Part shown: one piece after another, positions 7,439 to 60,639 of the stretch
How positions within the stretch are numbered: position 1 is the first letter of the stretch
Layout: each line of letters starts with the position of its first letter
NCBI RefSeq assembly: GCF_040436345.1
Contig: NC_133218.1
Span: forward strand, 23,855,070-23,919,069
Direction of reading: 5' to 3'
Source of the DNA: Pagrus major
Taxonomy: Eukaryota; Chordata; Actinopteri; Spariformes; Sparidae
Length of the DNA: 64,000 bases
Notes under the pieces: generated by a model
What the model saw: the letters and a program-made list of their open reading frames with translations, nothing else
Database searches by the model: none
What the model was told of the DNA's origin: nothing
Position numbers and translations under genes: made by a program

Positions 7439-10400
7439 TTAATGGATGAAAGGCATTCGCTCCTTGCTGTCGTTGTCTCCCTCTGGCTCCTCTTCTTCCT
7501 CTCCTGCTTCACTGGTCTCTGTGCTGTCGCTGGCCATCTAGTGGTGGTAAAATATTATGCAGCTGTCATTATCTGTATACTGAGCAACTTGTACAAAGAA
7601 ATAAAAACAGAGATGAACGTGAATGTGTGCTGACACCAAGTGGTCCAGTAAATGTATAGATTTATGTTCCTGTTACCAGAGGAGTGGGAGTTTTCTCAAC
7701 ATCCAGAATGAGTTTCCCTATGTTGCCTCTGTCGTGAATTCTCTGCATGGCCTCTTTTACCTGAGAATAAAACACAACAATTAAATTATCATCAACAATC
7801 TGAACTGTTGGGAAACAACATCACAACAGCAGCTGCTGAAGGTAAGATTGTAATATCACAAATTAAAATGATGGCTTTGGCTGATGATTTTTAACATCTA
7901 AACATGGCACAGCTCTTGTAATTATTGAAGGAACATGAGTGAAACTTTGACAAGAACTTGGGTTTATCCAGACAAACAGATGTTTGATTTGGGTTGAGTG
8001 ATTTGAATTCAGCATAAAATAATAATTTGCTTCTTTCTTCTCTGTGGTCGGTGTAGTTTATTTAAAACCAAACAAAAACAAAGAACAAACAAAGTTCTTA
8101 AAGTTCTTGTTACAAAACAGTTTGAGGCTTGTACTGCAGCCAGACTGTTTTATAGAAAAACACAAAGTTATCCTTTGTTTTGTTTTGTTTTTTATATAAC
8201 AGAGTGAACAGTTTTGAGCTTATTATTCAATATTTTCACAACATTTCACTTTTGGCTCCTTGTCATCATGTTATCAAGAAAATACCAAAAGTAAATTTTG
8301 TCGAAAACTATCACATTTTTTGTGAGCACTACCATTGTGCCATTATTGTAATTCTAGTTTTACTGCAACATTTCTCGTGTACGTTGATCAACACACCTCG
8401 CAGGTCAAAGTAATGAACAATGAAACATCAATGCTACTCATTAAAGCTTGTCTGACTCAACTGTGTAGAGAAAAATTCACACATCACAAAAGATTAGCTC
8501 AGGATGCCGTACCTTGCTTTCTCATTACAGTCTGCACAAAGACACAACTGAATGTGCCTCTTTGTCTGGAGGCCATTGTGTCACGAGCATTCATTTGCTA
8601 AAAGAAACAGCGGAAATCATGCCAAGAGCAAAAATAGGTCAGAAACTTGCACTGCTGCTAAGTAAAGTTTGCAGAAGAGAGAATCCACTTGGATTGTAGG
8701 TGTTATTGGATTTTCCTGGTACTTTCAAGCAACCACTGTAAGATACTGTATGAGGATTCAATTTTATTTTTAGTTAGTAAAACTGGTCAGATGACCTCCT
8801 GTTAGTCTGTTTCCGTCACGAATACTCTCCAACTTTTCATTTCAGAAAGAAAGCATGGTCAACATAAAAAAACAACGCCCTATGAATTCCCCCTCCAGGC
8901 ATACCAACCGATGAGGCAGGCTGTGGCCCTGACACTACATCCCACACCATCCTCCCCTCTAATGAGATTCTTCACGGGCACTAGTTCCAGTGAAAGGCCT
9001 GAGCAATCTGCCAAAGTTTAATGACAACAGTACATGGGGAGTTTCCCATGAGAAATGAAAATCTGAAGACAGCAATCATTTCATCGCACACTCTCCCCCT
9101 GACGATAGATATACAGAGTCTGGATTGACTTGTAATCAGCTACTTGTGATGTATAACCTGCACTGCCTCGCCTTTTATCAGTATTCCAGTAGCTTTTTTG
9201 GCAGCGATATAAATTCCAAACATTTTACTTGTGAAGACAGAGGACGTGTTGGATGCATTCTGATACTGCTGATTGGAGGGATTAGGCAAATCTCTCTCAG
9301 GTTAAACTTTAAGATGAGGAAATGGCTTTTACTTTAGTTATAATGATACCATTAGTCAGAATATAGCTACTGGAAATGGAGATAAAGCCAAAATACAACA
9401 GAAAGCAGCTTTTATCCTTTTGACTCTACAGTTGTGGCTCATGAAAGTTATGGACTAAAGTGCCTTTTACCAGGGATGCAAAAAAACGACTGGACTAGTC
9501 ACTAAATTTGCGAGTGCAAAATAAGTCTGCACAATTAATCGAAAAAGCGAAATTGCACTATATAGGTAGATACATAGGTACAATGTGTGACAAAACTGCA
9601 TTACAAACAAGTACTGTAGTGATGTAATGTTTGGTACAGACCCCAACAAATGCCACATCATCATGCATGCACAATACCAGAGCCCTGGAACAAGTTCACC
9701 TAAATGGAATGCAGCCGTAATTAATGTTATAAATTCTACCTGTGCTTTTCCTGCTTTGACAAGTCAAACTTCTGCTGAGGTTGAAGTCAGGTGAAGCGAT
9801 GCCAGAGTTACATGTTGCCAAACTCCATAATAAAAGGTAAAGCCCCTCCCACCTCAGGCACAACAACACTAATCAATCAAGCACAGTTAGGGCTGTCTCT
9901 TTTAATTTGAATTTTTTTTTTTTTTTTTCTGTAAGCGCAACAGGCGGTTTGCATCAGTTTGTCTTGTGTTCCAGTAGACAACATTCTTTACATGCAATTT
10001 TCTGCTTGACCTGTTGCAAGCGCTCTTGAACTATCAGTAAACTAAGCTAATGATAAAAATGGAGGAGGACATTAGCGGGCATAGCCGTGCTGATTAGAGA
10101 ATCACAACACAGAAGGACGAGCAGCGTGTGGAAGTATTTCGGGTTCGACACCGTAGATGTCAGAAATACCAATGAAGATTAGGCTGTGACTTTGGTGACT
10201 GTTAGTTTGCTGACTTTGTAAAAAGCAGCAGCTTAAGTTACTCTTCAGCAACACACTGAGGACTCATCTGCTAGCTTGTCCAAGTGGCAGCGTAGGCACC
10301 AGAAATAATTGGAGCAATATCAACTGTACAACCGGCTGCCTACTCATACGAACAGTATGACACCACAAGGGAAAGTATGAAGACTATATTGAAGGGTAAG

Positions 10401-13400
10401 ACCATTTGACCGGTACATATGGACATCGCTAGGAACGGTCACACATGCACTGGCACAGAACAGGGGGAACAACAATACTTTTTGTCCCCCCCCCCATTTT
10501 CAGATGCTATTGTAATAAAGTGGTAACATCTAAGCCAGTTATTACGGTCATAGTGCATTGGCAATAATGTCTTAAGGTTATGGCGTCTAACATGCACCTA
10601 GTTTTACTTGTGTGACAATCACAGCCATGTGTGTTGCCTTAAAACCAATTTGAACAAATTATGTGTTAGTTCAAATTCTTTTGAACTTTAAACTTTTTGA
10701 AAAAGAGAGAGCCCTCGCCCACACAGTCTAGTGCTTACAGTCTATCGTGGTCTGTCTCATTAGCTTTGACCTCAGAGATCCCACAACTAATGAGATGCTC
10801 TCAGGCAGACCACATCTAGGGATGTGTTTGAACATCTCATGTCATCTAATAAAGGCAAACTTTGCAGTTATGGAGCTTCATTTACCAGGAAGTTATGTCC
10901 ACCAGAATACAATTAAGTGGTAATTAACTGCTGATTCAGGAGTTAATGAGGATTGGGCGAACCCTGCATCAAACAATTGACCAGGACACAATGGATCATA
11001 ACATAATAAGAGGCTCAAGGCATGATTCAGCGCACATGAGAAAAGTGACTACTGTTGGCAAGAAGGCAATCTGACTGAAAACATTTTAGTAGTTCACAGT
11101 GCAGAGATTAAATCAACAGAGAGACCCCGGAGTAGAGATGGAATTTAACTCCATTATACATTCAGTATATTCTAAACAATGATCGATATGCTGATCCAAA
11201 GCCAGTAACGTACAAATGATTAGATTAGGTTTCTATCTACTTTACAAAGCTTCCCCAGAAATGGAACAACCACAGGTAAAGGAACACCTGAAGAGTTTAT
11301 AGAAATCAGGAGTGAAGTGATTGACGTGTGGGGTTTGTGTGGGTGTGATAATAACTGTGGAAGAGGCAGAAGCAACCTACCCACCATCTGTGGAAGATTG
11401 TCCAAGAACAGCTGACAATGTCCCACAGAAACTAGCAGTGACAAACAACAGCTGATATGCTGTCCAAGATGATTGTAGAAAATCTCTCCTCATGTGATCA
11501 CCACTGTGATCAGTTCATATTTAATCTGAATCTCACTGATTTGACCGTCTTACACCCTCTGATCACCCCAGGTTCTTACCTCCTCCAGCGCCCACAGGGA
11601 GTCCACGACCGGCTTGATTTTCTTTTGGTCGTAGAGACACAAGAGTTTGTCCATCACTGATTTCACGAGACCACATTTGCCGTGCTTGAAGAGGAGGTTG
11701 AGGAGCGAGAATCCAGCTATAACTTTGTTCTCCTCGTAGAGTTTAATAGGGTTCACCTTCTCCACCTGCCACCACTGGAGGAAAAACAAAACAGAGAGAC
11801 ACGTTCATCGCAGGTGACTCATTTTAGTGCGTGCGAGTTTGTTTCATTTGCTATGAAATGTTCATTGGATAGTAACAGACTGCATCTCTGACTCACGGAT
11901 TTTGCAAAGCTGAAGAAACTCTTTGTTTCCCCAGTTACCATGTTTGACGCGCCTGAAAAAACACAAAGAAAAGGATTTCTGTATGCAGTGCAAAAGCCTG
12001 GACAGGAGTGACCGGTCATTAATAAGCAGCCACGAAGCATGAAAGGTGAAGTGGGGGAGAAACAGTTGGCACCTTTAGACCCTTAGATCTGTGCAAGCAT
12101 GCCTTTGCACAAATTCAGTGTAACCAAAACTAATTAATTAATCTACCGCTAATACTGTTACTGTATTCATAAGGCCTGACAGGAACTAAAGTAATTAATG
12201 GAGATCATATTAGAATGGTAGCTGTGAAGGAGCGTGGAGTATGTTTAATTAGAGTCACTATTTCCTCACTCATCTTTAAAGGAAGGGTTTGATATTTTAA
12301 TTCATATTTTTGCCAAGAGTAAGCTTTGGTTAGGATAAAGACTTGATGCCAGGCCTCCAGAAACTGAGGCAGACGTTGAAGCCAACTTGACATAAAGTCC
12401 AAAATGTGAAGTGACAGCGTCATGTGACGCACACTGACCCTAAAAGACTTTTTCTCATAAGCTTACATTGTGAAAGAAGCATCTGTAAAACAATGGATAC
12501 ATTTTTTGCACGTCACAACCACCGTTAAAAGGCTCGTTTTACTATCAGAATTTGATCCAAAATCCGTCAATAATTGCCTCCATAGATCACAAATTACCAC
12601 ATTATGTCTCACAAAAACAGAAATTCTTTGATTTACAAAGGAATATGTTCCAGACTTTTTCTTGGCCAGGAGCAGTTACTGTCTCAGGGCCTGTTTCCGT
12701 TTCCTTTCATTATGTTACGCTATTTGTATCTTGGCTCAAGTTTTATATATAATGGTCAGTATTGATCTTCCCATCTAACTCTCAGCAAGAAAGCACATGA
12801 GCGTATTTCAAAAACAGTCGAACCGTTCCTTTAACTGCGATATTAACTCAAAGGTGAAGCAAATCGACTAAAATTTAACAATTTAGCCAATAGCACTTTG
12901 AAAATATGGAATGGAAAGACAATGGTTACAATGACACAGAGCAAAAAGCCCTGTTCTCACCGTAGAGGATGTAAGTTCCTAAAGGCTTCAGCAGAGTCAG
13001 GCCTTTCCCTGTGTTCTCTCCACACAGACAGTCCAACACGATGTCCACTCCGTCTGGAGAAATCCTAAAACATCAAGAGCAAAGTAAAGTCCACTGAAGA
13101 AAGGATTCATAACATGAATGAGTTTACCACTACAAATATGCGTATAGCCTGAACATTAGTGCTGCAACTAACAATTATTCCCAGATTTATTTATTTTTAT
13201 TAATAATTTAGTCCATCAAATATATAAAAAAAATGTAATCTGTCCTACACAGTTTACCAGCGCCCAAGTTGAAATCTTCATATGTTTTCTTTTGTCTAAC
13301 CAAAAGTCCAACTCACACATAGATATTCAGTTTGCAATAAAATGAAGCTCCAACCAGAGAACCGATAAAGCTTTTGCTCTATAAATGGATCAAGTGATTG

Positions 13401-16400
13401 ACTGATTATCAAAAGTGCTTTGAGCTGACACACATAATCAGTTAAAAGTTGTTCACCCGAAAAGGCATTAGCATCGCACTGAGAATCCAAAGCTTTTCTT
13501 TTTCATCATTTAAAAATGGCCTGGATGTCTTCGGGTTGTATGGTTGTAGACTGTTGGTTGGACAAAACAAGTGATTTGATGAGAAAACATTGTGCTTTTA
13601 GGAAATTGTGATTGTTCTTTAATGGCAAAACGATGACTCCTGAAAATAATCAGCGGATTAATCAATAAAGAAAATTAGTTGCAGCCCTGAAATAGCTGCA
13701 GAATCAATTTTATGTCCATCCACTAATCAGTTAATGGACTGTTCTACTGAACGTGTTGAGTTAATCTACAGACCTTTTTTTTGTTGAGGTAAAGTTCAAT
13801 CAGAGGCTAACTTCATACTTTGATATGGCTGTCTTACCTTGTTTATGACTGTGAGCACTGAATGTAAAAAAAAAAAAAAAAAAATCATATGCACATATTT
13901 ATGAGTCAGTCTATGATTCAAACTCTGGAGCAGCTTCAGGTTTTGTGTAATCATGGATTCGTAAGACTTTAGCACCGATTCTCAGGAGTATTACTCCGAG
14001 AAAAAGTTGCAGTATACAGCCCACGTGTCTGCCCACTGCTTTCTTATAAAGAACTTATTGATTTTTTGCAATGCCCACATTACTCCTCATCAGAAACATC
14101 CTTTATGTTGTGTTACAAAAATGTTTAATGTTCTTGTCGCACAGAGAATCAGCCAAAAGTTTGTCTTGAAGTGACTCATTAAAAGGCACGGAGACGAAAG
14201 AATGAAAGGCATGCTTTTATCAAGGCAGCCATAATTCCTCACTTTCTGCCTTTCTGCCCTGGACACCTGCTTGGCTAAACTGCTTGGTGGTCTTGTGATT
14301 CCCATGGTTTTTGCCTTTTGTAAAAAGACTAATTTAATTGTACTTTGCTCTTGATCCTGAGAAGAATGTGTGGGCCAGAGAGATGAAAGGCATATTAATC
14401 CACAACCACTTGATATGTAGGCAGAGCGCATGAAACAGTCAGTGCTTTTAAAAAAATGTATGTATCATAATCTGAAAAAGTAAAAATACATGTATGGTGC
14501 ATGTTTCCTTTGTTACATCACTCTACAAGCTGGCAGGCAGGATGGTGCTGAGCTTCAACAACATCTTCACAAAACTTCACACCATAATTGCAGCAAATTT
14601 GTGTCACATTACATAAGATCTCAGGCAACGTTCGCTACAAGGGGTTTTCTTTGTCGTGCACACGGGCTAACGGCGTGCTGCGTCGTTAGTGGAATGCTTA
14701 GGCTATCAATGCTCAGCCTTAATTGGCTCAGTTGTTCCACATTGCCAGCGTGGACCTCCGCCCCACACAATGCTGCTGCTCTCTGAGATGAGCTGTGCGT
14801 TGCCATGGGGACGATTGCCATACAAGACCAAATAAGGCAACAGGTAACATCTGCATCCTCGCACGGATGCGGTCCACGTTGTCACATTAATAAACATGTA
14901 TAACATGCAGGCTGCACGATGATGCCCTGCATATTTTATCATAGATTTTGTCAATCACATGTAAAGCACTTTGTTTAAAAGGTGCTACATAAATAAAGTT
15001 TGATTGATTTGACTGATTGATGTTATTTTTAACATTATAAAAATTTGTATTACACATGAGGAAATAAATGCAGACTCCTCAAGCTCAAATCAACCATGAT
15101 ACAAATGAACTTTCTGTGCTTACTTTTTGATTTCTTGCATATAATCAGCGTTTCGGTCAAAGAGGTGAGTCACCGAGTCTCTGATGGCTGCGTGTTTGAA
15201 ACATGAGGCGATCCCAAACACTGTGACATTAGGAACAGTGGAGCACAGCTGAGCCACGGCTTGACCCTGAAAATAACAAAACAATTAGCAACAATTTATC
15301 TATGCCTGAGAACACAACATTAAGGCAACACTACATTTGTATTGAATAGGATTCCTTTAAGTGATTGACTTTAGTTAGAAGCATTTCTTTCAGTAATTCC
15401 AAAACTCAAATTACTTAAAAGGATGGTCAAGACGTTTGAGTAAGACATAATTTAAAGTCTGGTCTAAGATTTTCATTCTGCACTGTGGCACAAACAACAG
15501 CAACTTCTTCCTTTTGTGGCTATGAAGCCATCACTTCCGATGACATTCGGATGAAATGGAGAAACTTGTTCGGTGGCTGTGCAACAATCAGAAGAAAAAC
15601 ACTTACTACACCACCTCCCGCTGAGTGAACCAACACCGACATCCCCTCTCGCAGATTGGCGACCTCAAACAGCATCATATAGGCGGCCACAAAGTTCAGG
15701 GAGAATGCAGCAGCCTCGGCAAACGTCATTTCATCTGGCATCTTGTAGACAAAATCCACTGGGGTGCAAACAACTTCTGCCCAGGCGTTGTAATTCACAA
15801 AAGCCATAACCCTGTCTCCTATCTGAAAGACACATGTTAGAGTAGCTGGATTACAAGCAGAGGGGAAGTTATTAGCAGATTATTGATTACCTGAAATGGA
15901 TATCTGGTTAATAGGCTCACAGCGTCTTTGTTTTGCAGATTCGGTTGCTCAGAAACTGACGCTTCATTTCACTTACCTCGAATCCTGTTGTGTTTTCAGC
16001 CACTGACTCTACTATTCCAGAGCATTCAAAGCCGGGGACGAGAGGAGGTTTGGGAGGATTATCAATATTCCCCTGACGTACCATCAGGTCCAAAAAATTC
16101 AAGCCGCTGCAACAAAGAATAAACAGTTGCCACCTTAATATTTGTTGACATGAGAGCTCCCTGATTCATCATTTTGAGGGAAAACATGCCTTTGAACTGT
16201 CTAAATAATATAAATATTTAGTATGAGCTGTTCAGAGATTTACAAATTACCCTGTGCTATTTCTTCATCATTATCAGCAGTGAGTCACTGGCTATTGCCC
16301 TGTGAATACAAGGCCAGATTCAACAGGCATGAATAATATTTTTCTAACTGAGAGTTTGCAAACACTAGGCATTGGTTCAGCTGTGATCTTCTGCATTAAT

Positions 16401-16866
16401 GACTCCATTTATACCTTGTGACTGACTGAAAATAAGTGGATCTGTCTGAGATAATGCTGGCTTTTCTGAACAACAGTTGGTCCAGCCAGCCTGCACTAGA
16501 AAAGACCTGTGGCTTCATGACTGCGAAATTTTTCCAATCAGATGTTCAGCATTCAATACTTGTCAGAAATACTGTGTAGCGAAGGCCAGAGCACATCACA
16601 GTCCACCAGTGGGTGTAGGTAGGTATACAGTGGTATTTTCATATTTACCATGCTTTGACGCGGATCTTCACCTCACCACCCTGGAGCTCGGGCATTGCCT
16701 TCTTGGTCACCCTGAGTTTGTTAAGACCTCCAAAGCCTGCCAGTATCACCGCTCGCATTTCTTTGGCATCGCCGCCGGACGAGTCCACGTTTTCTGTTTC
16801 TTTGCCCACGTTTTTGTCTATCATGAACTCGGTTTCCTCCGTCATATCTGCTCCTTCTTTAGCCAT
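7439..16866 (-). CDS. vat1l: Vesicle amine transport protein 1-like (quinone oxidoreductase-like)
   Basis: Nine coding exons on the minus strand: 16649-16866, 15977-16106, 15607-15822, 15124-15266, 12961-13064, 11897-11952, 11580-11774, 7677-7760 and 7439-7537. They join in phase to 414 aa (human VAT1L 419 aa). The protein belongs to the medium-chain dehydrogenase/reductase family. The first 40 residues are a low-complexity leader. The GroES-like half contains NFLDLMVRQGN and VPGFECSG. The nucleotide-binding motif AGGGVGQAVAQL falls at about residues 184-195 and is split by the exon 3/4 junction. The conserved C-terminal parts WWQVEKVNPIKLYEENKVIA and KKIKPVVDSLWALEEV are present. The last exon encodes an acidic tail (GEEEEEPEGDNDSKERMPF). 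VAT1L is cytosolic or membrane-associated and enriched in neurons; its substrate is unknown. The start codon matches the human N terminus (MAKEG). Introns hold several transposon fragments, and a foldback element begins 366 bp upstream of the start. Confidence 0.97.
7761..11579 (-). other. vat1l: Large vat1l intron 7
   Basis: A 3.8-kb intron between coding exons 7 and 8. It holds a miniature-transposon fragment at about 9475-9650 and a 17-nt T-run at 9912-9928. No nested gene or other coding exon is recognisable. Confidence 0.6.
9475..9650. mobile_element. Fragment of a miniature DNA transposon
   Basis: Contains GCACAATTAATCG at about 9529-9541, and further on ACTGCATTACAA followed by AAGTACT and TTTGGTACAGAC. 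Similar blocks in similar order occur at 22570-22715, which ends in GGGCAGCCCTA, and a related start occurs at 58487. I infer one dispersed family, hAT-like in appearance. Ends and target duplications were not resolved. Confidence 0.45.
12280..12838. repeat. Dispersed teleost repeat copy
   Basis: The right end, reverse-complemented, contains GGAACGGTTCGACTG, then a TGCTTTCTTGCTGAGAGTTA block and AGATGGGAAGATCAATACTG. This order is a familiar degenerate interspersed repeat of teleost genomes. A weaker similar start lies near 12285-12325. It sits in vat1l intron 5 and has no coding content. A second member lies at 56826-57475. Confidence 0.5.
13158..13688. mobile_element. Miniature transposon, GCTGCAACTAA family
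   Basis: The left end AGTGCTGCAACTAA and the right end TTAGTTGCAGCCCT are inverted copies with one mismatch. The element is 531 bp and sits in vat1l intron 4. Its interior is AT-rich and non-coding. Shorter members of the same family occur at 28755-28862, 36250-36441 and 60640-60794. I could not see a clear target duplication. Confidence 0.6.
14956..15023 (+). mobile_element. 3' tail of an L2-type LINE
   Basis: AAAGCACTTTG followed by GTGCTACATAAATAAAGTTT and a GATT-rich tail. This is a typical 3' end of fish L2-class retroposons. Only the tail is present. An inverted relative lies at 39436-39518. Confidence 0.55.
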
Positions 16867-17232
16867 GTCGGAGACCTGCCGCTGTGCCTCTGCGCTCCTC
16901 CTCGGGGCTCAGACTGATGTGGCGTGCAGCCTGTGAACAGACAGTCAGCCGCTGTATGGACCGCTACCCACAGTGGGGCCTGAGATCTCACCATCTACAG
17001 CTTCATTCAATCATGCGCGATTCAAGTGCTGATTTTTTTCACCCCGTTCAAGTCACCGACATTCTCATTTGTTCAACTTGAGTTTGCCATTATACGAATC
17101 AGGAATATAATTCGTCCCCGGCTATATCATTTGCTTGCGAGTAGGCTATGAAGTGCACCATCTGCTGGTGAAGTATGTAAAAAACTTTACAACTCTGATA
17201 ATGCAACTCATCCATCCATGCAGCAGGGGCTG
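16867..17232 (-). promoter_or_regulatory. vat1l: vat1l upstream region
   Basis: The 366 bp between the vat1l start codon and the foldback element should contain the 5' UTR and core promoter. The part next to the gene is GC-rich, with several CpGs. No TATA box is evident at a sensible distance. Promoter function is inferred from position only. Confidence 0.45.
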
Positions 17233-17246
17233 GCTCAATTTGTGGC

Positions 17247-17306
17247 AGCGGCACCTAGCTGCGGCATCTCTTGTGGCACCCTCAGGTGCCGCAGCTAGGT
17301 GCCGCT
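17247..17306. repeat. Terminal palindrome, left arm
   Basis: AGCGGCACCTAGCTGCGGCA at 17247-17266 is perfectly complementary to 17287-17306, with a 20-nt loop between. It can form a GC-rich hairpin. Confidence 0.9.
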
Positions 17307-17320
17307 AGCAGTCGCGGCGG

Positions 17321-17705
17321 GTGCCACTGTTTGGTGCAGGTGCCACTGCGGGTGCCACTGTTTGGTGGAGGTGCCACTGCGTGTGCCACTGTTTGGTGGA
17401 GGTGCCACTGCGGGTGCCACTGTTTGGTGGAGGTGCCACTGCAGGTGCCACTGTTTGGTGAAGGTGCCACTGCGGGTGCCACTGCGTGTGCCACTGTTTG
17501 GTGGAGGTGCCACTGCGTTTGCCACTGTTTGGTGGAGGTGCCACTGCGTTTGCCACTGCTTGGTGGAGGTGCCACTGCGGGTGCCACTGTTTGGTGGAGG
17601 TGCCACTGCATGTGCCACTGTTTGGTGGAGGTGCCACTGCGGGTGCCACTGTTTGGTGGAGGTGCCACTGCGGGTGCCACTGTTTGGTGGAGGTGCCACT
17701 GCTTA
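17321..17705. repeat. 31-bp minisatellite, left arm
   Basis: About 12 units, each GGTGCCACTG, a short CGG or CGT spacer, GTGCCACTG, then TTTGGTGGA. Each unit contains the 9-bp GTGCCACTG twice. One unit near 17460-17505 is 44 bp because it holds a third copy. Since 31 is not a multiple of three and the unit has no stop, every frame on both strands stays open; these frames are not genes. Confidence 0.95.
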
Positions 17706-17743
17706 TTCATGCCGCTGTTCGGCGGAGGTGTCACTGCTTATGC

Positions 17744-20550
17744 TGCTGCAGCAAGACAAGAGGGTCTGGCTGCAGACCTCCAGCGTGGGGTCGCTTCCGG
17801 GCTACTGCAGTAATCTCAGCACACATAGAGGGCAGGAGTACTATAGCCTACTTGAAACCATCAATCAACTTAACATAATTAATCCAAGCTTTTTTTCATA
17901 GCCTCAGCAACTCATGTATACCATTTATGTAGGCTTAGTTAAATGTATTATTTTGCATTGCATTAGATGATTCCACCTAAGTCTTTTACATGATATAGCC
18001 TAGTCTACTTGACGTCTGAAGATCTTTAGAAGACATAGCGGCCAATCAGAATTTTAACTATGTTTAAATAACAGTTTGAGCAAGTGTGGAGGAGAGAAAT
18101 AATGGGAAACAAAATCATCTTCAATTCTCTCCACAAAAAAAGAGTTTATTTTTATTTTCATTCAATTGTTACACATGGTGTGTGGATTATCACCTGCAAC
18201 TTAACTGACTAAAACTATACTTTGCAACTTATTTTGTTGTCTGTGTACTTGCTTGTATGATTATCACAGTCTTTACCAAGAGTGGGTTACAACTGCCACA
18301 GATGCCTGATGACGCTGTTTGGGGGAGATGCCAAGGCAGATGTCGCTCTTTGGGAAGGCTGCTATTGAGATGCCGAGGTTTAGTTTATGAATGTTAACAA
18401 TTGTCAAAGCTGAATTAGACTAGCTACAGGTAGCATTTCCATGACATGTTTTTCATTACTTTGCAAGGTTTCCTTGATTAATCTCTCAATATTTCGTATT
18501 GATTCATATCACCGTTTGTTCATTAATTTAATTGCCATTTATGATTTTATTTCGAACATGTAAATAGGATTACGTGAACAAAACCTACATAAGTAATGTT
18601 ATGTAGCAATGCTGTGGAAAGAAAGAAAATGAATAGCTTACATTTAGGTTAGGCTATTATCTTTCTTTATATTAAAAATGATGTGTAATACGACTGTGTT
18701 GAAGGTTTTCCATCTTCATATTGTTTTTTTCTTTCTTTCTTTTTTTTAGAGGAATATGAAGTCGTTACTGCTTCCACTTAGTCTGACTATAGGCTACTGT
18801 ATATTTTCTTGTACAGTTTATCTTAAATATCTGTCAGTTATGCACTTTCCCCCAGAAGAGACATCAGATCCAGAGACGTAGGATACTGCTCACAATGTCA
18901 ATACATCGGACCAACTTGGAACCCACTCTCTGTGTTTTTGGACTCAAACTGTTCAATACTGTATAATCCGTCTGGATCTGAAGACAGAAACATCATATGA
19001 CGCTTTTAACCACTGATTTGCAACTCAACAGATAAAGATTTTTAACTTTTTTCCCGATTTTTAAAAAAAAATCCAGATCCATAATATACTACATGGATTT
19101 CATTTGATTGTGAAAGACCTACTTATTTTTGGCAATGTTTTTGCATGTCAACCAGCATCAATTTTGCTGATGTTGGTGTGTTCTCTGATATTGTTTATAT
19201 CTTCAGAGAGGATTGTATATTGCACAAAATCTTCATGACATATCTGTTATTCCAAATCTTTTGATTGCATTTTAATGATTCATGTTATGTATATTTTTAG
19301 TTGGTTTAATGCATAAGTGCTTTGCGTTGCCCTGTTGTGCCACATAGGCCTACATCACTTTTCCATTGGGTTACAATAAATCATCTGAATACAGTATCTT
19401 ACATAAGACTGCATTTAAAATCATTTATATATGAATGTGAAGTGGTTTCAGACTTAAGATGGCAACGATTTACAGACATGTCAGCAGATGGCTGCTGGTC
19501 CACGAGGTAGAAAAAAAATCAAATGATGTTTTGATGACACACTTACAGAATAAATATGTAGCTTAAATGGTTGCCATGTTTGTGTTTTTCCTGTCACTTT
19601 GGGTAATTGAATGCTCATCTGTGATTAAAACACTCAGGCTACATTGTTTTGTGTTGTTTGAAAGGTGATGTTTTTTCCCCCCCTCTTACTTTATCCATTA
19701 CAACTTGAACGAAAATGCCAATTGGAAGTGTACAGAGGCAACACTTATGATAGGGTTTATGAAACTTTATGACACAAGGGGACTGCGGGGAATGGTCATT
19801 CTAAAGGTCACATTTTGAAAGTCGGCTTTATATTAGGCGATAATTACTCATAACCCCATTGGAATAGCGCTACAGAGGAAAATATGCAGATTTTTCTTTA
19901 ACCTCCTATTTTGTTATCGCTTGAGAGAGAGATGCGGCAGGAGAGAAGGATGATGAATGGCAAGGTAGCCTACTAAATTAGCCTACTTAATCTTTGTCAG
20001 AGATGTTTTCAAATTATGGGAAATAGTTAGGCTACCACATCACGATGTAAATAACATAACCCACTTTTGGATTGAAGCTGCAATACTTGAAGTGACCTCT
20101 CACACCTGGCAACCCGACAGAGCGTCAAATCAGAGTGATGACTGCCCACCTATTTGTCACTACAACTTACCACACGCTGGTCCTGTGGATGTGTAAACTC
20201 AAAAGTGAATAAAACACTGGATGACTGGAGAAACATTGGTAGGTAATCAAATTTAGTCACACACACACACAACCAAATCTCATATTAAAATTTTAAAATG
20301 TTATAAAATGTTTGTTTACTTTTATTCTGTCCATCTTGAATGGTTGCATTTGTCAATAAATGTTGATGAAAACTATTTCAATGGAAAGGTGGAAATAAGA
20401 GAATTATGCAAAATAGAAAAATACATTTTTATAGCAATTTTTTCAAGGATATTTTTGCTCCCAATCAATTTGAGTGTTGGTAAAATTAAGATGGTCCCTG
20501 GTTGGTGGTTAATCAAGAAAACCTTGCAAAATAATGGTAAAATCCCGATA
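17744..20550. other. Interior of the foldback element
   Basis: AT-rich, without a recognisable gene or transposase. At about 18305-18382 there is a degenerate piece resembling the arm sequence (GCTGTTTGGGGGAGATGCC), probably a decayed repeat unit. A (CA) run lies at 20258-20271. Confidence 0.5.
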
Positions 20551-20602
20551 GCATATAGTGACACCTCCGCCCAACAAAACGGCGGCATCTGCCGTGGCAC
20601 TG

Positions 20603-21012
20603 GTAGCGGCACCCGCAGTGGCACCTCCACCAAACAGTGGCACCCGCAGTGGCACCTCCACCAAACAGTGGCACACGCAGTGGCACCCGCAGTGGCACCT
20701 CCACCAAACAGTGGCACCCACAGTGGCACCTCCACCAAACAGTGGCACCCGCAGTGGCACCTCCACCAAACAGTGGCACACGCAGTGGCACCTCCACCAA
20801 ACAGTGGCACCCGCAGTGGCACCTCCACCAAACAGTGGCACACGCAGTGGCACCCGCAGTGGCACCTCCACCAAACAGTGGCTACCACAGTGGCACCTCC
20901 ACCAAACAGTGGCACCCACAGTGGCACCTCCACCAAACAGTGGCACACGCAGTGGCACCTCCACCAAACAGTGGCACACGCAGTGGCACCTCCACCAAAC
21001 AGTGGCACCCGC
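20603..21012. repeat. 31-bp minisatellite, right arm (inverted)
   Basis: About 12 units of the same 31-bp repeat in the opposite orientation (CAGTGGCAC and CCTCCACCAAACAGTGGCAC). Two of the intervals are lengthened to 44 bp by an extra CAGTGGCACCCG-type piece. Confidence 0.95.
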
Positions 21013-21022
21013 TGCGACTGCT

Positions 21023-21082
21023 AGCGGCACCTAGCTGCGGCATCTGAGGGTGCCACAAGAGATGCCGCAGCTAGGTGCCGCT
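21023..21082. repeat. Terminal palindrome, right arm
   Basis: Same 20-bp stem as the left arm (21023-21042 with 21063-21082) around a 20-nt loop. The loop is the reverse complement of the left one apart from one change. Confidence 0.9.
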
Positions 21083-21902
21083 GCCACAAATTGAGCTTGC
21101 TCTTTCTCCAGCCATGATGCAACAACTAGTCCTTCAACAAGTGTGGTGCCTTCAGGTGCGCTTGGGAATATTGGTTAAGCATCGTACAACCCCTTACCTC
21201 ACCTCAAAGTTTATGTCGTGCTTGTTAATGTTGAACTGGTAATTATTGATGTTTTAGTGAATTTGAAAAGTAGATATTGATGTCAGAAAGCTGAGGTGCA
21301 GCTTAACAAAGGCACAGAAACCACGGAGTCCGACGATATGGCTAACGCTTGCCAGCGTTACCTCAAAACATTTAATACGAATTTTAATAAGCTAACTTAA
21401 ATGGCATTACAAAAAAAAACTAGCTGTTTCCATCACTTGTCAAGAGTCCCAAAATAATTAAACATAACTTTAATGATAGAATTTGTTAATCATTTGTTTG
21501 CTTGCCAGTAGTAGTCGCAGAAATCAAGCTAACGGTAAAGGAGACACATAACGCTAGCTACAGTAGCCCTGACATGTTATCACTTCATTAAGTTGTTGTG
21601 GTTAATGTGGTAACAAACAGTTGGCTAATTTATTCACACATCCAGCAGGAGAGTGACATTATCAGCCTGTAGAGTACTGACCACATGATGAATCTAGGTC
21701 CTAAAACTGCTGCTAGCTACTTGTCTCACTCGACTTTTAGCGGTTAGCTTTATTTGTGACGCCGTCTGTTGCTAGGTGATTGGGATCATAGACATAAATT
21801 GGTTAAGCTAGCTGCTAACATTATTAGCTTAGTCAGTCTTCTATGTCTGATATGGTGAGTAATACACAATGGGTTTATCTTTTTTATTTACAACAACAAT
21901 AT

Positions 21903-27619: not shown

Positions 27620-28860
27620 GTATATATATAATGACTTGACAAATTATTTACATAACTTGCGATTTGGTACTTTAAATAATAGAACATTTTGTTTAAAGGC
27701 ACATTTGCATTAACAATAGCATCTATGGGAACATATTTGACTTTGTTAAAGCCGCTGCAACAGAATACCTACAAAAATCCTCTTAAGCTACGTTCTTATT
27801 TCATGCTTTGTGTCAAACACAAAAGCTATGATTGCCCTGTGACTGCAGACAAAAGGATTATATTTCCAGAGGAGACATTAGACAAATCCACTCTTAGGAG
27901 CTGAATAGACTTTGGTGTTAAAAATACATTCGCATTCATCTCAGTCTGGGATTAGTAATGCCACAGGAGTTCATGCAATTATGAAGCAAATATCTGGTGT
28001 TTCTTCTTATTGTTAATATACCTCTTTAAGAGCTGTTAGATGCTACGAGACCCTCTCATTAGAGAGTTGGATAGGATGAAAATTGTACTGAATCGTTTAC
28101 TTGACTTATGTGTCATTCCAGCCCATTGTCATGGACTGCAGGCTTGCCAGGCTCCAGTGGATCTGACCTCTTTCGGTGAACCGTGTCCTGTGCTTGGAAG
28201 TTACCTGTCTGTAGAGTACCACTGCAAACATGGTCAGATTTGTCCTTTTTTACTTCCACTAGACGGGAGCACAAAGTCATGGGTTATGTGTAGTTAACAA
28301 CTAGTTGGACTTAGCCAAAGTTGCGGTTGATGTCGTCATGCTCAGACTATGTTGTGTATGTCTTGTATTCCTCTCGTAATGACGCAACCATATTTCTTAT
28401 CCTTCACCTTTCATCTCCTTTGACAGCAGAGCTATGTAGCCTCTCAAGCTAAACTTGCAAGTTGACTTTCAACTCATTCAAATGATTGCCTTGCTGAGTG
28501 AACTTAGATGAACTTTTATTACAACATGGATACATATAAATTCCTCTCAGGACTCCACCTGTTGATGAGCAAGCTGGCGGCCGTCTTTGATAATGTCACC
28601 ATCACCGTGAAGTGGCTCCTTCATCCTTTTCAGGGAAACCTCACGTGCAAACTGAATGCTGGAGACGGCCACACTATTGATCCATACAGCCCAGCAGAGT
28701 GAGCAATACTTTGCATTCAACCAGATAGAAAGTAAAATAGCAGTTCTCTGATTCTAGCTTTGGAAAATCTTTGGGTTGTGGACAAAACAAAACATTTGAG
28801 GATGTCATCTCGGGCTTTAGGAAACACAGATAGATATTTTTCAGCGTTTTCTGACATTTT

Positions 28861-28906
<46 letters not shown>

Positions 28907-31900: not shown

Positions 31901-34900
31901 AGTGTTAATATAAAGAGGGATTTAAGCATTTTTGAACGACTCTTAAAAAGCAGTGCTTCGTTCGAGACTATGTATTAATTTTGTTTGCTTAAAATGAAGA
32001 CGTTTTTACACTTTCTGGCTTTGAAAGAAGCTGATAAATCGATTTTTTACTAAATGTGTGTTTTTCTTTTTTAAAGGCAAGAAGGAGCCAGGTTTTGCAA
32101 AATACACGTTACCGATACCAGCTCCTGAACCAACTGAACCAGCTGCAACTGCTGCACCTACAACCCCCAACCCCCCCTCATGTAGCATCTCTCCAGGGTC
32201 GGGAACAGTCCTCGATGCTTTTGACATTACCTGCACAGCAAGCTCTTTCTGCTCCACAGGATGCTCTTACTGCTTCAAAACAGACACAGGTGAGAATTTG
32301 CACCACTGTCTCTTTTGATTTATTTCACTTTTAAACAAATTTTAAAGTGAAAATGATTGCCTGTTATTCATTTTAATGTTATGACTATTGAACAACCCAT
32401 AAACTGAGACATAATCAAGAATTCATCACAACTTTTACTAAATTGTCTCTTTTATCTTCAAGGCCAACATTTACGCTGCAGTAATGCAAATGAGGTGAAA
32501 TCTGTCTTCTTGCCTCTCGGAGATAAGAGCAACAATTACAGGTTGTCTGTTGTGGTGACTGTGAAAAATGAATATGAGGAAGCCACCACCACGGTCTCCA
32601 CTCAGGTTTGTCATCTACCATGATCAGAGAAATTAAAATTGGCAAAACAGGCTGTCCATGTAAAAGTCTTGAATAATTTAGAGTGATTGTTAATGTTCCT
32701 CAAGGTGAGAAGAAGCAGCTCCGGCACCTCTGTGGATGCTCTCCAATCTGCAGTGGAGGATACTGTGAGTCAGTTAGAGCAGCAGGGTCTGCTCTCTGGC
32801 GAGGCTCTCGGACAACTATTTTCTTCAGTTTCTGATATGTTGAACAAAGAGGCCGGCCAAGATCAGAAGGATGCAAGAATGAAGGTAACAGAATGATATT
32901 TGTGAGGCTTACAACTAGAAGTCGACCCATTGATCAGTTTGGTTAACCTAGATTTTGGACGTTTTTGATGTTCAGTTCCAGATTTATGTATTTTATTAAG
33001 TTTTTATTTTGAGTTTGATGTTCAATGATCCAGATTTATTGATAACTTAGACTTAAATGTTCAGTTTATCAGTTATCCAGTTGCTAATAAAGTCAAAGAT
33101 AAGTATTAGTATAGTATCAGTATTTTTTTTCCCCACATGTGAAGGGCTATTTGTCGATTAATCACCTATCAGCTTTTTCCTGTTTCAAACTAGCAGTAAT
33201 GTATTAGCCTTTAAAAATCCTCTATCAGTTGACTTGTATTTACAACTTGCATGGAGAGCAACGTGATGTTGATCAGAACTTCCTTCCCCTTTAGCTCAGA
33301 GAGCAAATGTTGACCAGAATGACCACAGTTCTTCTGGAGACACCCAGCAACACCACTCAGGGAGTGCGAGTGACGGCCAGAGCTGTGGCTGGACTCACCA
33401 AGCATCCCGACGAGCTCAGTCCAACTGCTCAAGTACCGTACAGTATATCAGTACAGCAACATTAAGAAATCTACAAATGTCCACTGGAAAACAGGCAGTA
33501 CAGACAGCCCTTTGTAAATAGGCAATGATAATACTTAATGGAATAGCAACACCAGCTGTAAATGATATCTTAGCCATTGTTTCTTAATTAAAAGCAAGCT
33601 TAAATTTTGAGCATGGACTCTCTAGAGCTGATGTGCCATTAAGGATTCAAAGCATTTCATTGTTGAATACGACTCAGCAATAAGTGCAATCTGCAGGAAC
33701 ATGCAGACCACACTACTTAAAAGCATTTTCAACTGCCTTTCTCATCCAATAGATAAACTGTATTGCTCTAGATATAATGTCCATCGGCTCTCCAATCTTT
33801 TTCTGTTGCTTTATTTTCTCTCCAGGAAGAAGCGGGCTCATTGTTGGTGGACCTCAGCTCCTCCCTCAGCACTGTCAGCGTTAATCAGGAAGACGGTGAT
33901 GATGGAGAAGTTGTGCAAGCTGCTACACCAATAGTTGAAGCAGCCAGTAATATTTTGAACGTTTCATCAAATGTAAGGAAAAAACTATCACTGATTACTT
34001 GCTAAATATCTATCTTTCCTCTGTCCTCTATGGTCTTTACCAAACAAGATGGTTTATGTTTTCATCAGAAAAAAGTCTCAGAGTTTCTTCTCACTGGGAT
34101 CAACAATGTCCAAAGTGCTTTGCTGATTAATAAAAAGCTGAACGGAGAGCCTGCCATCATTGATTCTGGTCAGATCAGCGTGTATGTCAACAGGTAAGAG
34201 ATGACTGACACTTGCTAGAACATGTATTTGATAAACTAGGGTTTGCTGAAGTCACTAAGAATATTGTGATTATGCTTCCTGCAGAGTGTCTCCAGGAAAG
34301 ATGCAAATGCAGGATATAAATGTCCAGAAGAACAGCTCCTCCAGATTTTCCTTCCCCACACTGCCTGCTCATATTGTCTCTCCAGACGAGCCAGTAGATG
34401 TCAGAGTAAGTGTGTGTACTGTGGGGGACACACAGGAGTGTCTTAAAAAGTTTGTTTCCACGGTAGGAGGGGTCAGCAGTGTGGGATGTATAAGGTTTTA
34501 CTGTTAAACATCCGTAATACCCAGACCAGTTAAAATGGCAGCAGTGACTTGTTCATTCCTCAGAAATAAAGAGTCCTTATCTGGAAACAGAAAATGGAGG
34601 AACGAAGCGTCGAATCTCAAAACTTTGTTAAAATCTGACATCGTCTACAGCTATGGAACCAACAGAAATAAAGTCATGAGTTACATTTTTGCACAAATTG
34701 CCCTATCTATGTGCCCACTTCCTTCTAGATGATGAGTTTTGAGACAAATCCATATTCTTGGAAGGAGGACAACATCACAGGAGCTGTCGGATCCGTCTCT
34801 CTCGCCAGAGTGAACGGCACTGTCATCCCTGTAGAGAACTTACCTGAAGAGATAGAGGTAGTATTTTGTAGAGGTACTTTTAGTTACTTTGGATTGCACT

Positions 34901-37900
34901 GGTAGACTGTTCAGAATGATGTGTTTTCTGGCTTTTCAGATTCTCTTGCCAAGACTTGACGTTGGGCAGGAGAACAGCACAGTCCTGGACCTTGCCAATT
35001 TCAGCACATTAATAATTGACGTCCCCTCGCCGGATGTAACACTCGTGCTGAAAATGGAGCCGTCTGAAGACATTTCCTTCATGCTATTCCTGGGATACAA
35101 AGATTATCCAAATGATGAGAATCATGTGGCTAAGACTCAGATCCCTCTAGAGAATGCCACAGACGGTAATATAAAACAGATTTACTTTTTATAATAATAT
35201 GTCTGAAAGTCACATTTAAACTGTACTCGAGAGAGGCAGTGTGGTGTATTGATTATCCATTACTTCAAATTTCCTTTGTGTTTTGGGTGAACTTATTTAA
35301 AGTCGGACAGGCTGAATACAGTTCTGTCATTTTAACACAGGGGAGAAATACACCTGGGTGCTGAGTCCCAAAGACAGAACAGGAGATGTTGGAGTGCACT
35401 TCCTTGTTATGAAGCCAATCGTAGAGCCAGGCGTCAAATCCGTCAATGCCACTGTTAATGTAATTTCCATCGCTGCCCAGTGCAAATACTGGAATGAAAC
35501 TGAGTCTTCTTGGAGTGAAGACGGCTGCAGAGTGAGTTAAAAAACAATAACACACATCCACAGTGGTTGTATCAGTACATTCTTGAAAAGTGAGCTGTGG
35601 CTTTTCTTTTTCTTTATTTCTTCATACAGGTCGGTCCGCTCACCACGCCTCTGGTCACTCAGTGCCTCTGTAACCACTTAACTTTCTTCGGCAGCTCTTT
35701 CTTTGTCATGCCGAACTTAGTGGACGTGTCACGCACCGCAGAACTCTTTGCTACTTTCACCAACAATCCTGTGGTGGTGTGTTTTGTGGGGGCCATCTTT
35801 GCTGTTTATGTCATGGTTGTTGTGTGGGCGCGCAGGAAAGACATCCAGGACTCAGCCAAGGTACTTCTCAGTTAACACTTCCACCACATAATGTCATTGA
35901 ATCTTTGAAGTGCCGGACAATTTGGGAAGCTCAGACTTTGCTGCTCACACATATAATATGAAATGCTCACAGTGTCAGTACCACAGCAGACTGTAAAGTG
36001 CAGCACCCCTGTTTTCAGCTGGGTTGTAAAAAGTACCCAGAACTCATACCTGAGTAAAAATAAACATATCGAGTTAAAATATTACTTTGGTAAAAGTGAA
36101 AGTCACCCATATGAATAGTACCTGATTGAAAGTCAAAGTATCTGATATTAAATATACTCAAGTAGCAAAAATACAAGTAAAAGTAAATTATAGATATAGT
36201 ATATTCACATGTATATTTCCTTTTTTCTTTACTCCTCTATGACAGTAAACTGAATATCTTTGGGTTGTGGAACAAAGAAGACATTTGAGGACATCATATT
36301 GGGCTTAGGGAAACACTGATCGAAAATGTTCACCTTTTTAAGACATTTTTAGACCAAACAACTAATCTATTAACTGAGAAAATAATTCACCGATTAATTG
36401 ACAGTGAAAGTAATCGGGTAAAATAATTAGGTGCAGCCCTACATGAATGTACCAATGAAAAAACTGCTACCTACTACAAAATTATTACATATTTTTGTGA
36501 GAGAGAACATCATTGTTTGAATTATATCTTATGTAGTCTCTGAAATGCTTTTCACTTTTCTTAATGTTCATGTTTAACATTTACTTTTTGTCATTGAATT
36601 AACCAATAAAAACAAATCCCCGAACACTGTGTCTTCCACTCTCTCGTAGGTCAAGATAACAGTGCTCGAGGATAACGACCCGTTGGCTGAGTATCGTTAC
36701 ATGCTAACTTTCAGCACAGGGCATCGGCATGGTGCAGCCACCTCCTCTCAGGTCGGTGATGATCCACTAACAGAAAACATACCTGTCTGCTGCTTCTGTT
36801 GGATAACAGTTATGATGCTGACACAACTTTGAGTATGTCTGTTCATCTTGATTGTTTTAGGTGACGATAACTCTTCTGGGTACAGAGGGGGAAAGTGAGC
36901 CCCACCACCTGACAGACTCTGAGAAGCCAGTGTTTGAGAGGGGTGGGATGGACATGTTTCTGCTGACCACACACTTCTCCCTCGGAGATCTGCAGAGCAT
37001 CAGGCTGTGGCACGACAACTCAGGAGCCCACCCTGCTTGGTATGAGTTACAGGGCAAGACTGACTGACTTCAATCACAGTTAAGCTTGAGTTTGTACTAA
37101 TTAGTGATGTTACACACAGGTATGTCAACAAAGTAATGGTGCAGGATCTGGAGAGTGGTCATAAATGGCACTTCCTGTGTAACTCCTGGCTGGCTGTAGA
37201 TGTGGGAGAGTGCACTCTTGACAAGGTCTTCCCAGTTGCAACGGAAATGGATTTGAAGAGGTTTAGGTAAGACCAGCTATAGATCTGGTAATAACACATC
37301 ACCAAGCATTTCACAATTGGATTTATTATTCTCCTGACTCCAATTATGCTTTTTCTTCAATATTTTCTAGTAACCTGTTCTTCATGAAGACAGCCAAGGA
37401 TTTCCGTGATGGCCACATCTGGTTCTCTGTCATCAGTCGGCCCCCCTGCAGCACTTTCACTCGTGTGCAGCGAGTTTCCTGCTGTTTTTCCCTGCTGTTG
37501 TGCACAATGCTCACCAGCATCATGTTTTGGGGCATCCCTACTGACCCCTCTGAGCAGACCATGGACCTGGGTGGGTAACTGAATTCAAATATTCAGATAA
37601 TTTAATTACATAACAGAATACTTTTAATTAGGCCTTGCACACACAGAATGAATGTGATTATTTCTGATTTTCAGCATTAATGTAAAAAAATGTAACTAAT
37701 AGATTTTTGCATTGAACTTTTGGATGACAATGACCTGGGGCAGGGAAAGTTGAACTGGTATTGTAGTGTTGACCTTTAAATTGAGATCTGTAGAAAAAAT
37801 CACATCTGTTTAAACTCAACTTACTTTGCAGGTCACATAGAGTTCACCTGGCAACAAGTTATGATTGGAATTCAAAGTTCAATCATCATGTTTCCCATCA

Positions 37901-52735: not shown

Positions 52736-54149
52736 TGTAAAAAGTACCTGAGTTATCTCAGGGTCAACTCTCAGACCAAGATTAAAGATTGTGAAAAATG
52801 ATGAAATGAAAAATGCCCTAAAGTGTTGAGTGTTGTGTCTTCTACCATGGCTGGTTATAGACACCATAAAGCTGATACAGATTTAAGAACACTGTTGGTT
52901 TGGTTGGTTCCCAAAGCCCAAGATGACGTCCTTGAATGTCTTGTTTTGTCCACATCCCAAAGATATTCAGTTAAATGTCATCGAGGAGTATAGCAGAATC
53001 AAAGTTGACAGCTGATCAGTCTTTGTTGACTCTGTTCCTACCTTTTATAAAACCCGTCACATCACAAGATTGCCTCATAAAGGTTCACATAGCGAGGTAT
53101 TTCATGACCTTTAGACATGCTGTCAAAGAATCCATCCTACAGCCTAACGTTCGTGGTATCTCAATATCCTGTGTTTTCATTTCTTTTTTCTGAGTCATCT
53201 GCTGCTTCCTCGGCAGACTGGCAGGCTTGGAATGAATAGAATCTCCGGACTGGCCGATTTCCCCCTGCATCCTGTCATTGTTGGTAGACCTTCTTGCTTT
53301 TTTTATTGAAGTGACAGTAAAGGGTTTGGGCACTAAGACTGATGCTTGTTAAGGCAGAGGCCTGATGAAAGATGACAGATAATTGTAGAAAAGAAATTCT
53401 CTCAGGTGAAAGCAGATGTAGAATCTACAGTACTTGCGTCTTTTCTTTGTTGACTTGTAAGGTGATAACCATTATCAAGATGCTGCTGTGTTGTTTAGAA
53501 ACAGAAGCCAGTATTGAAGTGGGATCTTATCAACTGTCTCGTTTACCCACACACAGAACTATTGTCTGTACAGAAATTTAGCTTTGTAGACGTCATGTGT
53601 CAATATATCTTCTTAACATATGCAGAGCAAGTAGCATCAACATCATTTTATTTTACATCTGCTGTTCATGTTGATAAAGGGATGCACATTACAAGCAATT
53701 TCTTTAATTGATAGTAAACTGCCCTAATAATTGATTAGTTGTTAAACATTTTTCCATCAGAAAACTGTTTAACCACTGACGTGATTTATGTATGATGCAA
53801 AAATAGGAGTTAGGAGTTAAAAGAACAGATAAAGAGAACACTAAGTTACTTAAATGATAAATTAAATAAGACAAAGTAATGACTTCATTTTAATTGTGGA
53901 GTTCCCATGTGATGCTATTAAATGGCTAAAATGTAAAAATATTGGTTTGTATAGAATGTCTTTCTAATAATGTTTAATTGGTTGAATTCTGAAAGGCAAT
54001 TTGTGATTAATCATTAACATCTCTAGTTGGTATGTACATTTCTGGCCCTTCTGGTCCTGGTCTACGTCTGACTCAGGATCAAGAAAGATTAACAGCTGAG
54101 AGCAACACATAGACTGCACTGATATTGACTTGGACTGTCTCATTTTTCT

Positions 54150-59316: not shown

Positions 59317-60123
59317 TAGAGGTCAACCGATCAGTCGATTTGGCCGATTATGGAATGGAGTACGTTACCATTTTGCATGGAGGATATGCTAAGTCAGTCA
59401 TCATCATTTGAAGGCCGCGTGTGTGTGATTGACTCCTGATAATATAAAGTAAACAAATTGACACATACTTTGGTGACTGCTGTACGTTAAAGTTAGATAT
59501 ACAGCAGCCATACATGCACGACAGACTTTAATTAATGTCATGTTTTTCAATGTAGACTAAGAGAGACTGACGTTACATCAGATATATTTTTTTCATAAAG
59601 TAATTCTCCACTCCATGAAATACCTTCCACGCATTACTCTGGAGATAAGGGTTACAAAATATGGTCTAACGTTAAATCTTTGCGGTCCAGGGGTAATGTT
59701 AAACGTTGGAACATGAAATTGCACACTTTAGGATCCTCCTTACCCCAGGAATACGCACAAACATTAATGGTTTGTAAGACTGGCAATTAACAATGTAACG
59801 GGACGCGCAACAGAAGTAATACTGGCCAGTTCAGCCACAGAACAGCGCATCATCCATTGTAAATATAACAGATTCCAACAAAGTAATCCACTAAATCACA
59901 CATTTCCAGATCTTGTGTCTTGATATCAAACAGACAGCTACTGCTAGCTTTTCAACGGAGATTAAAGACTGTGTCTTGCACATCTTTAGTTACTCTATTT
60001 TACTAACATTACAAAGCCCGAGTTTTACTGTAACTTATCACCGAAAGGGTGTATCAGCTTTTTCCTTCTCCCAACTATCATTATTAAATCTGCCTTTAAA
60101 AATCCATTATCGGTCGACCTCTA
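59317..60123. mobile_element. hAT-like non-autonomous transposon with 8-bp target duplication
   Basis: Starts TAGAGGTCAACCGAT and ends ATCGGTCGACCTCTA, inverted repeats with one mismatch in 15. TTTGTTTA is present on both sides (59309-59316 and 60124-60131), an exact 8-bp target-site duplication as expected for hAT transposases. The 807-bp body has subterminal GGCCGATTATGG and CCATTATCGG motifs and no transposase frame. Confidence 0.85.
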
Positions 60124-60639
60124 TTTGTTTATGCAGAGTAAAATATGTAGGTCAGACTCTGACACATACCACAAGGAGCTTTTAATTGGTTATGAAATAG
60201 TCTCAATGAATAGTCTTTAATACTGATGCCTCTGGTGACCTAAATGAGAAAACAAGACCATTAGCGAAAAGATTGGCTATTTTCTATGTAATAATTATGT
60301 TTATTCCTAATGGCCGACAATAAACAAATTGATGTCACTGGTGTTACAAGTTTTGGTTTCTCTTGCATGTGGTCTTTTTCCTATCTGCTGCCTGTCACTT
60401 AACAGATGTTTATAACAGCAGAAGTAACGCCCACTGGATGTTTTTACTTGCTCATACGCTCACCCAACCTTCATGTCATATCGTCACGCCATTTTCTAGT
60501 AAGAATGCTTCTTTGACAAGTTCCTCCAGCTTGTAAATGTGCACTCAAGTTTATTAGGTACACCTAGCTGGAGATAGTGCAGTCTTGCACAACAGTCCTG
60601 CAATGAATCCTGTAAGTTTTCAGTTACTTTTCTTTGTCA

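Follow-up and report, generated by a model that had tools for sequence, protein, structure and literature searches.

The original Zisupton element is reportedly 11 kb long, with subterminal inverted repeats of 99 bp, 8-nt target duplications, zinc fingers and an Ulp1 SUMO protease. In two other papers, 8-bp duplications (PMC12730594) and a multi-exonic gene (PMC9297572) are given for Zisupton. The family described here, of which one copy lies in the window (the whole 64,000-nt stretch of DNA that was analysed, part of contig C4), resembles Zisupton in its 8-bp duplications, in inverted repeats set in from the ends, and in the gene of its long copies, which has several exons and both zinc-finger-like and CxC4 motifs. 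It differs in having arms of about 0.5 kb with a palindrome and a minisatellite, and a form, the commonest among the copies found, that is short and coding-free; moreover, the KDZ domain was not detected in it.

Arms of comparable build are known from other elements. In Tm1 of root-knot nematodes the arms are composite and include a short motif in repeated form, and outside the inverted repeat lie short end motifs that are unequal, as in the present family; Tm1 makes 9-bp duplications, however, and is placed by its authors with Mutator/Foldback (PMC3169594). Tetris of Drosophila virilis is likewise non-autonomous, with outer, tandem-repeat and inner arm domains and with repeats that resemble the outer domain; its unit, however, is about 220 bp, its duplications are 8-10 bp, and it was classed as Mutator by its authors, who sought longer gene-bearing relatives and found none (PMC4079207). 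The long arms of Galileo (P superfamily) also contain internal tandem repeats, and for the arm repeats binding of transposase has been shown (PMC3688188). Among vertebrate class II elements, Xmix MITE / Xstir of Xenopus have tandem repeats in the TIR, as given in a review table (PMC9659126). In the open-access literature, neither a report of a teleost foldback nor the phrase 'non-autonomous Zisupton' was found among the matches listed; in two of the matches the word foldback concerned Drosophila.

On the basis of the comparisons below, the element in the window is very probably a foldback-type DNA transposon that is non-autonomous and derives by internal deletion from a Zisupton/KDZ element of roughly 15 kb. 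A vertebrate foldback family and its longer gene-bearing relatives are met together in one genome, and with a candidate enzyme gene, arms that differ in unit number and a copy with flipped interior present, the purpose of long repetitive arms is directly testable.

Boundaries and features of the element

The element spans 17221-21108 (3888 bp), including unequal 12-bp ends outside the inverted arms, and is flanked by an 8-bp target duplication, CATCCATG on the left and CAGCCATG on the right, with a 7/8 match in the window copy. The first-pass annotation had delimited it to 17233..21096; these positions hold as edges of the arms, and the true ends, as read from other copies, lie 12 bp further out, at 17221 and 21108. 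When the window copy was taken alone, 15.5% of random pairs scored as high as a duplication at the arm edge, and 226/3000 (7.5%) as high as a duplication with the unequal ends included; the 8-bp register, not decidable from this copy alone, was revealed by the other copies. The features are as follows.

17213..17220, + strand: left target-site duplication CATCCATG, 7/8 against the right copy
17221..17232, + strand: left end CAGCAGGGGCTG outside the inverted repeat, identical in 8/9 paired copies
17233..17245, + strand: left arm outer border, from the arm alignment
17247..17306, + strand: left palindrome, limbs resembling array units in opposite orientations
17317..17702, + strand: left 31-bp minisatellite array
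17703..17744, + strand: left inner border, decayed units
17745..18410, + strand: left-side sequence without right-arm counterpart, edges approximate, present in other copies
18450..18481, + strand: inner inverted-repeat pair, left copy
18482..20259, + strand: left part of the longer element's interior, without Pfam domain
20259..20260, no strand: internal deletion junction TCAAATTTAGTCA / CACACA, identical in 7/7 short copies
20260..20508, + strand: right part of the longer element's interior
20509..20542, - strand: inner inverted-repeat pair, right copy
20550..20604, - strand: right inner border, decayed units
20605..21012, - strand: right 31-bp array with a 167-bp higher-order repeat
21023..21082, - strand: right palindrome
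21084..21096, - strand: right arm outer border
21097..21108, + strand: right end TTGCTCTTTCTC outside the inverted repeat, identical in 9/9 paired copies
21109..21116, + strand: right target-site duplication CAGCCATG

The left-side sequence at 17745-18410 includes degenerate units at 18294-18363. An insertion into the window copy was ruled out for this stretch, since it occurs in other copies too and is therefore an original part of the element.

Arm architecture

Two inverted arms of ~0.5 kb, each with outer border, palindrome, 31-bp array and inner border, had been proposed from the letters, and the alignment confirmed them. Segments 17233-17702 and 20615-21096 aligned in inverted orientation at 94% over 482 columns, and the repeat search gave 433 nt at 95% for the arm pair. 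Between 17233-17702 and 20605-21096, 14 substitutions were counted in 469 aligned bases, together with 24 gap columns, which comprise 2 single bases, 12 columns from one extra sub-repeat and 10 from uneven cutting of the compared segments. The outer 110 bp of the arms differ at 3 positions, one more than the approximately two of the initial estimate.

Within each arm, an outer border of 13 bp is followed by the palindrome, which on the left (17247-17269 / 17284-17306) pairs 22/23 bp. Folding of the palindrome gave z-values of -3.9 and -5.3 in the two arms, with 0/200 shuffles as stable in each. The array of each arm has a 31-bp unit and twelve unit starts, the last unit being partial. Homology at 18450-18481 / 20509-20542 extends the arms inward with a score of 48, which was reached by 0/2000 random pairs outside the element (maximum 47).

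Six tests were run between palindrome and unit. Both palindrome limbs matched the array unit, one in each orientation (shuffles as good: 0.0015 and 0.0005), the minus strand of the loop also matched (0.0025), and the remaining three gave no match. The arm thus looks like one short motif that was inverted at the end and amplified inward. Collinearity of the arms is not claimed, as the unit order was no more alike between them than after shuffling (matched order 0.12). Slower decay of the outer arm than of the inner part is suggested by 14/469 against 6/78 substitutions (Fisher p = 0.051); a by-eye inner count of 6/77 gives p 0.049 in the same comparison.

Open frames in the arrays were rejected as genes, the 31-bp unit being without stop in any frame on both strands. 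Rfam and tRNA searches returned 0 matches within the window.

Copies in the genome

The 111-bp arm end was found at at least 11 places in the 786-Mb genome (25 contigs), and as an inverted pair in nine of these; all genome copy counts are lower bounds. In total, 39 arm-end matches were obtained, of which 20 lie at arm starts, corresponding to the 11 places, and 19 come from the second limb of the palindrome. Paired copies are located on C4 (the window copy), C17 (twice), C21, C22, C6, C5, C18 and C9, and single arms at a second C9 place and on C13. The search for the same arm-gap-arm order elsewhere, a check named beforehand, was therewith passed, 9/11 places having paired inverted arms and 8-bp target duplications. 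The right end is TTGCTCTTTCTC in every one of the nine pairs and the left end CAGCAGGGGCTG in eight, both lying outside the inverted repeat.

The flanking 8-mers agree at 8/8 positions in four copies (L009, L010, L011 and L013), at 7/8 in the window copy, L012 and L014, at 6/8 in L015, and at 2/8, in fixed register, in the C9 copy, the left end of which is damaged. Over the nine copies this amounts to 61/72 positions, against a mean of 2.0 of 8 and a maximum of 4 in 72 mismatched cross-locus control pairs.

Flanks are unrelated between loci, except for the two C9 places (L016/L017 and L018/L025, at about 1.2 and 0.98 Mb), which share a 100% identical flank and are 99.97% identical over 14.5 kb; the second of them runs into 100 N. 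This pair may be a recent segmental duplication or an assembly duplicate. Because of the shared flank and the 99.97% identity, ten independent sites are counted among the places found, and, the C9 long copies being one insertion duplicated, the long forms rest on two sites.

The copies make up a dispersed foldback-type family. Unit numbers vary between them, with 2-12 in the left and 1-16 in the right array (loose pattern). Exact element patterns gave 0 matches in viral and genome contig collections that hold no fish genomes, and the letters of the 31-bp unit and of the palindrome gave 0 matches in paper texts.

Short, long and flipped copies

Over its full length, the window copy has 98.3% identity with L009 on C17. 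Seven short copies (the window copy and L009-L014) share the junction TCAAATTTAGTCA|CACACA, with CA runs of varying length, and this coding-free form is the commonest among the copies found. Near 19135, L011, L012 and L014 are about 0.78 kb and L013 is 1.68 kb longer than the window copy and L009. The shared junction is missing from the C9 long copy and from L015. At the junction point, the C9 copy carries about 11.7 kb of extra DNA, around which no 8-bp duplication was read by eye. The C13 copy, which is without the left outer arm, also has the long interior, with aligned pieces 95-97% like those of C9.

Since one deletion junction is common to all seven short copies, a single deletion derivative has spread and later diversified, and the presence of the shared deletion at different target sites strongly implies that the short copies moved in trans.

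In L015 (C18:11978544-11987550; 8.4 kb), the orientation of the interior is reversed with respect to the unequal 12-bp ends, a flip that recombination between the arms would produce. Other DNA is also present in L015; it includes a frame of 689 codons that by eye resembles the reverse transcriptase of a nested LINE.

Coding content

The impression that the window element has no transposase frame was borne out by 0 Pfam families in six frames at E up to 1. A 41-codon frame at 18756-18881 (MKSLLLPLSL...DPET), without Pfam match, is preceded by a pyrimidine tract and an AG and followed by AATAAA at 19375; it may be an end exon.

The extra DNA of the longer copies contains a multi-exon gene with a CxC4 cluster, which is KDZ-associated. 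In the C9 long copy, CxC4 was above the cut-off (1.6e-6); when nine exon-like pieces were chained, it scored 40.9 bits and covered profile positions 2-93 of 130. It was not reported in the C13 long copy. A weak C2H2 finger below the cut-off was obtained in both. By eye, a frame with the Ulp1-like motif VNCGVFV and a SWIM-like CxC...CxH stretch were read; in the frames searched, Pfam gave no match to a C48 peptidase, nor to a hAT domain.

Genome-wide, CxC4 is present at six places, two of which are the C9 copies. The long-copy exons match the CxC4 loci L032 (C9 6.228 Mb) and L034 (C18 4.418 Mb), e.g. with 75% over 284 and 81% over 212 residues. These two loci are related to each other, and the exons of their CxC4-bearing genes follow the same order. 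For PF18758, the KDZ transposase domain, no match was obtained in the long copies, where introns may split the domain and the exon chain is rough. Elsewhere in the genome, six loci match PF18758, all of them outside the foldback family, and the long-copy exons gave 0 tblastn matches against the four of these six that were compared.

Lineage and proposed mechanism

As in foldback elements, tandem-repeat arms lie near the ends, target duplications flank the element, and copies with paired arms are dispersed. The 8-bp duplication, the subterminal inverted repeats with unequal 12-bp ends outside them, and CxC4 in the C9 long copies agree with Zisupton/KDZ; membership in that lineage is likely, as CxC4, 8-bp duplications and subterminal repeats together point to it. 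A 9-bp target duplication, as in Mutator, was not found, the copies showing 8 bp.

Target duplications of 8 bp are also made by hAT and P elements, and in the foldback family no KDZ domain was found, so that another superfamily, of the hAT or P kind, could mobilise the same family, and what the long copies carry as coding interior would be captured or nested DNA. This is unlikely in view of the interior itself, which recurs in both of the independent long copies, has a KDZ-associated CxC4 cluster that scores above the cut-off, and joins the element, as judged by eye, without a flanking 8-bp duplication. From the window copy alone, with arm edges lacking a clear duplication, the arms could have been read as two separate insertions of a short solo element around host DNA, or as a local inverted duplication enclosing it, but this is refuted by the nine paired copies, which have homologous middles and are flanked by duplications, and is now very improbable. 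An assembly artefact is barely credible: tandem arrays are prone to misassembly and unit numbers may be wrong, yet nine paired copies at unrelated flanks argue against it.

For a deletion derivative of a Zisupton/KDZ element, an enzyme from the longer copies would act in trans on the element ends, where the subterminal palindrome and the minisatellite may offer it many binding sites and help to draw both ends together; the element would then be cut and pasted as a whole. We infer the role of the array as an enzyme binding site by analogy. Array length would change by slippage and unequal exchange, and the arms could recombine with each other and thereby flip the interior.

It is tentatively proposed, as an idea somewhat short of probable, that the foldback form arose in Zisupton/KDZ, outside the Mutator and P lineages cited for foldbacks. 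The arms would then be an end motif inverted to a hairpin and amplified to an array, with a dual role: as a platform for binding they would let a defective copy spread further than its parent, and as a site of recombination they would flip the interior, as in L015. If the lineage assignment is true, KDZ would join the lineages able to take foldback form.

Genomic surroundings

A nearly complete orthologue of vat1l was located at 7442-16866 (- strand) by nine tblastn segments. The left arm starts 367 bp upstream of the vat1l start codon, and one copy of the family is thus placed on the promoter side of a gene. Pfam matches in the window include lectin and polycystin/PKD channel domains, 6/10 frames searched having a listed match. 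In addition, a dispersed repeat is present in three copies (28763-28865, 36227-36353 and 52905-52993) that are 80-86% alike, and a 75-bp direct repeat at 33167-33241 and 60052-60126 is 77% alike.
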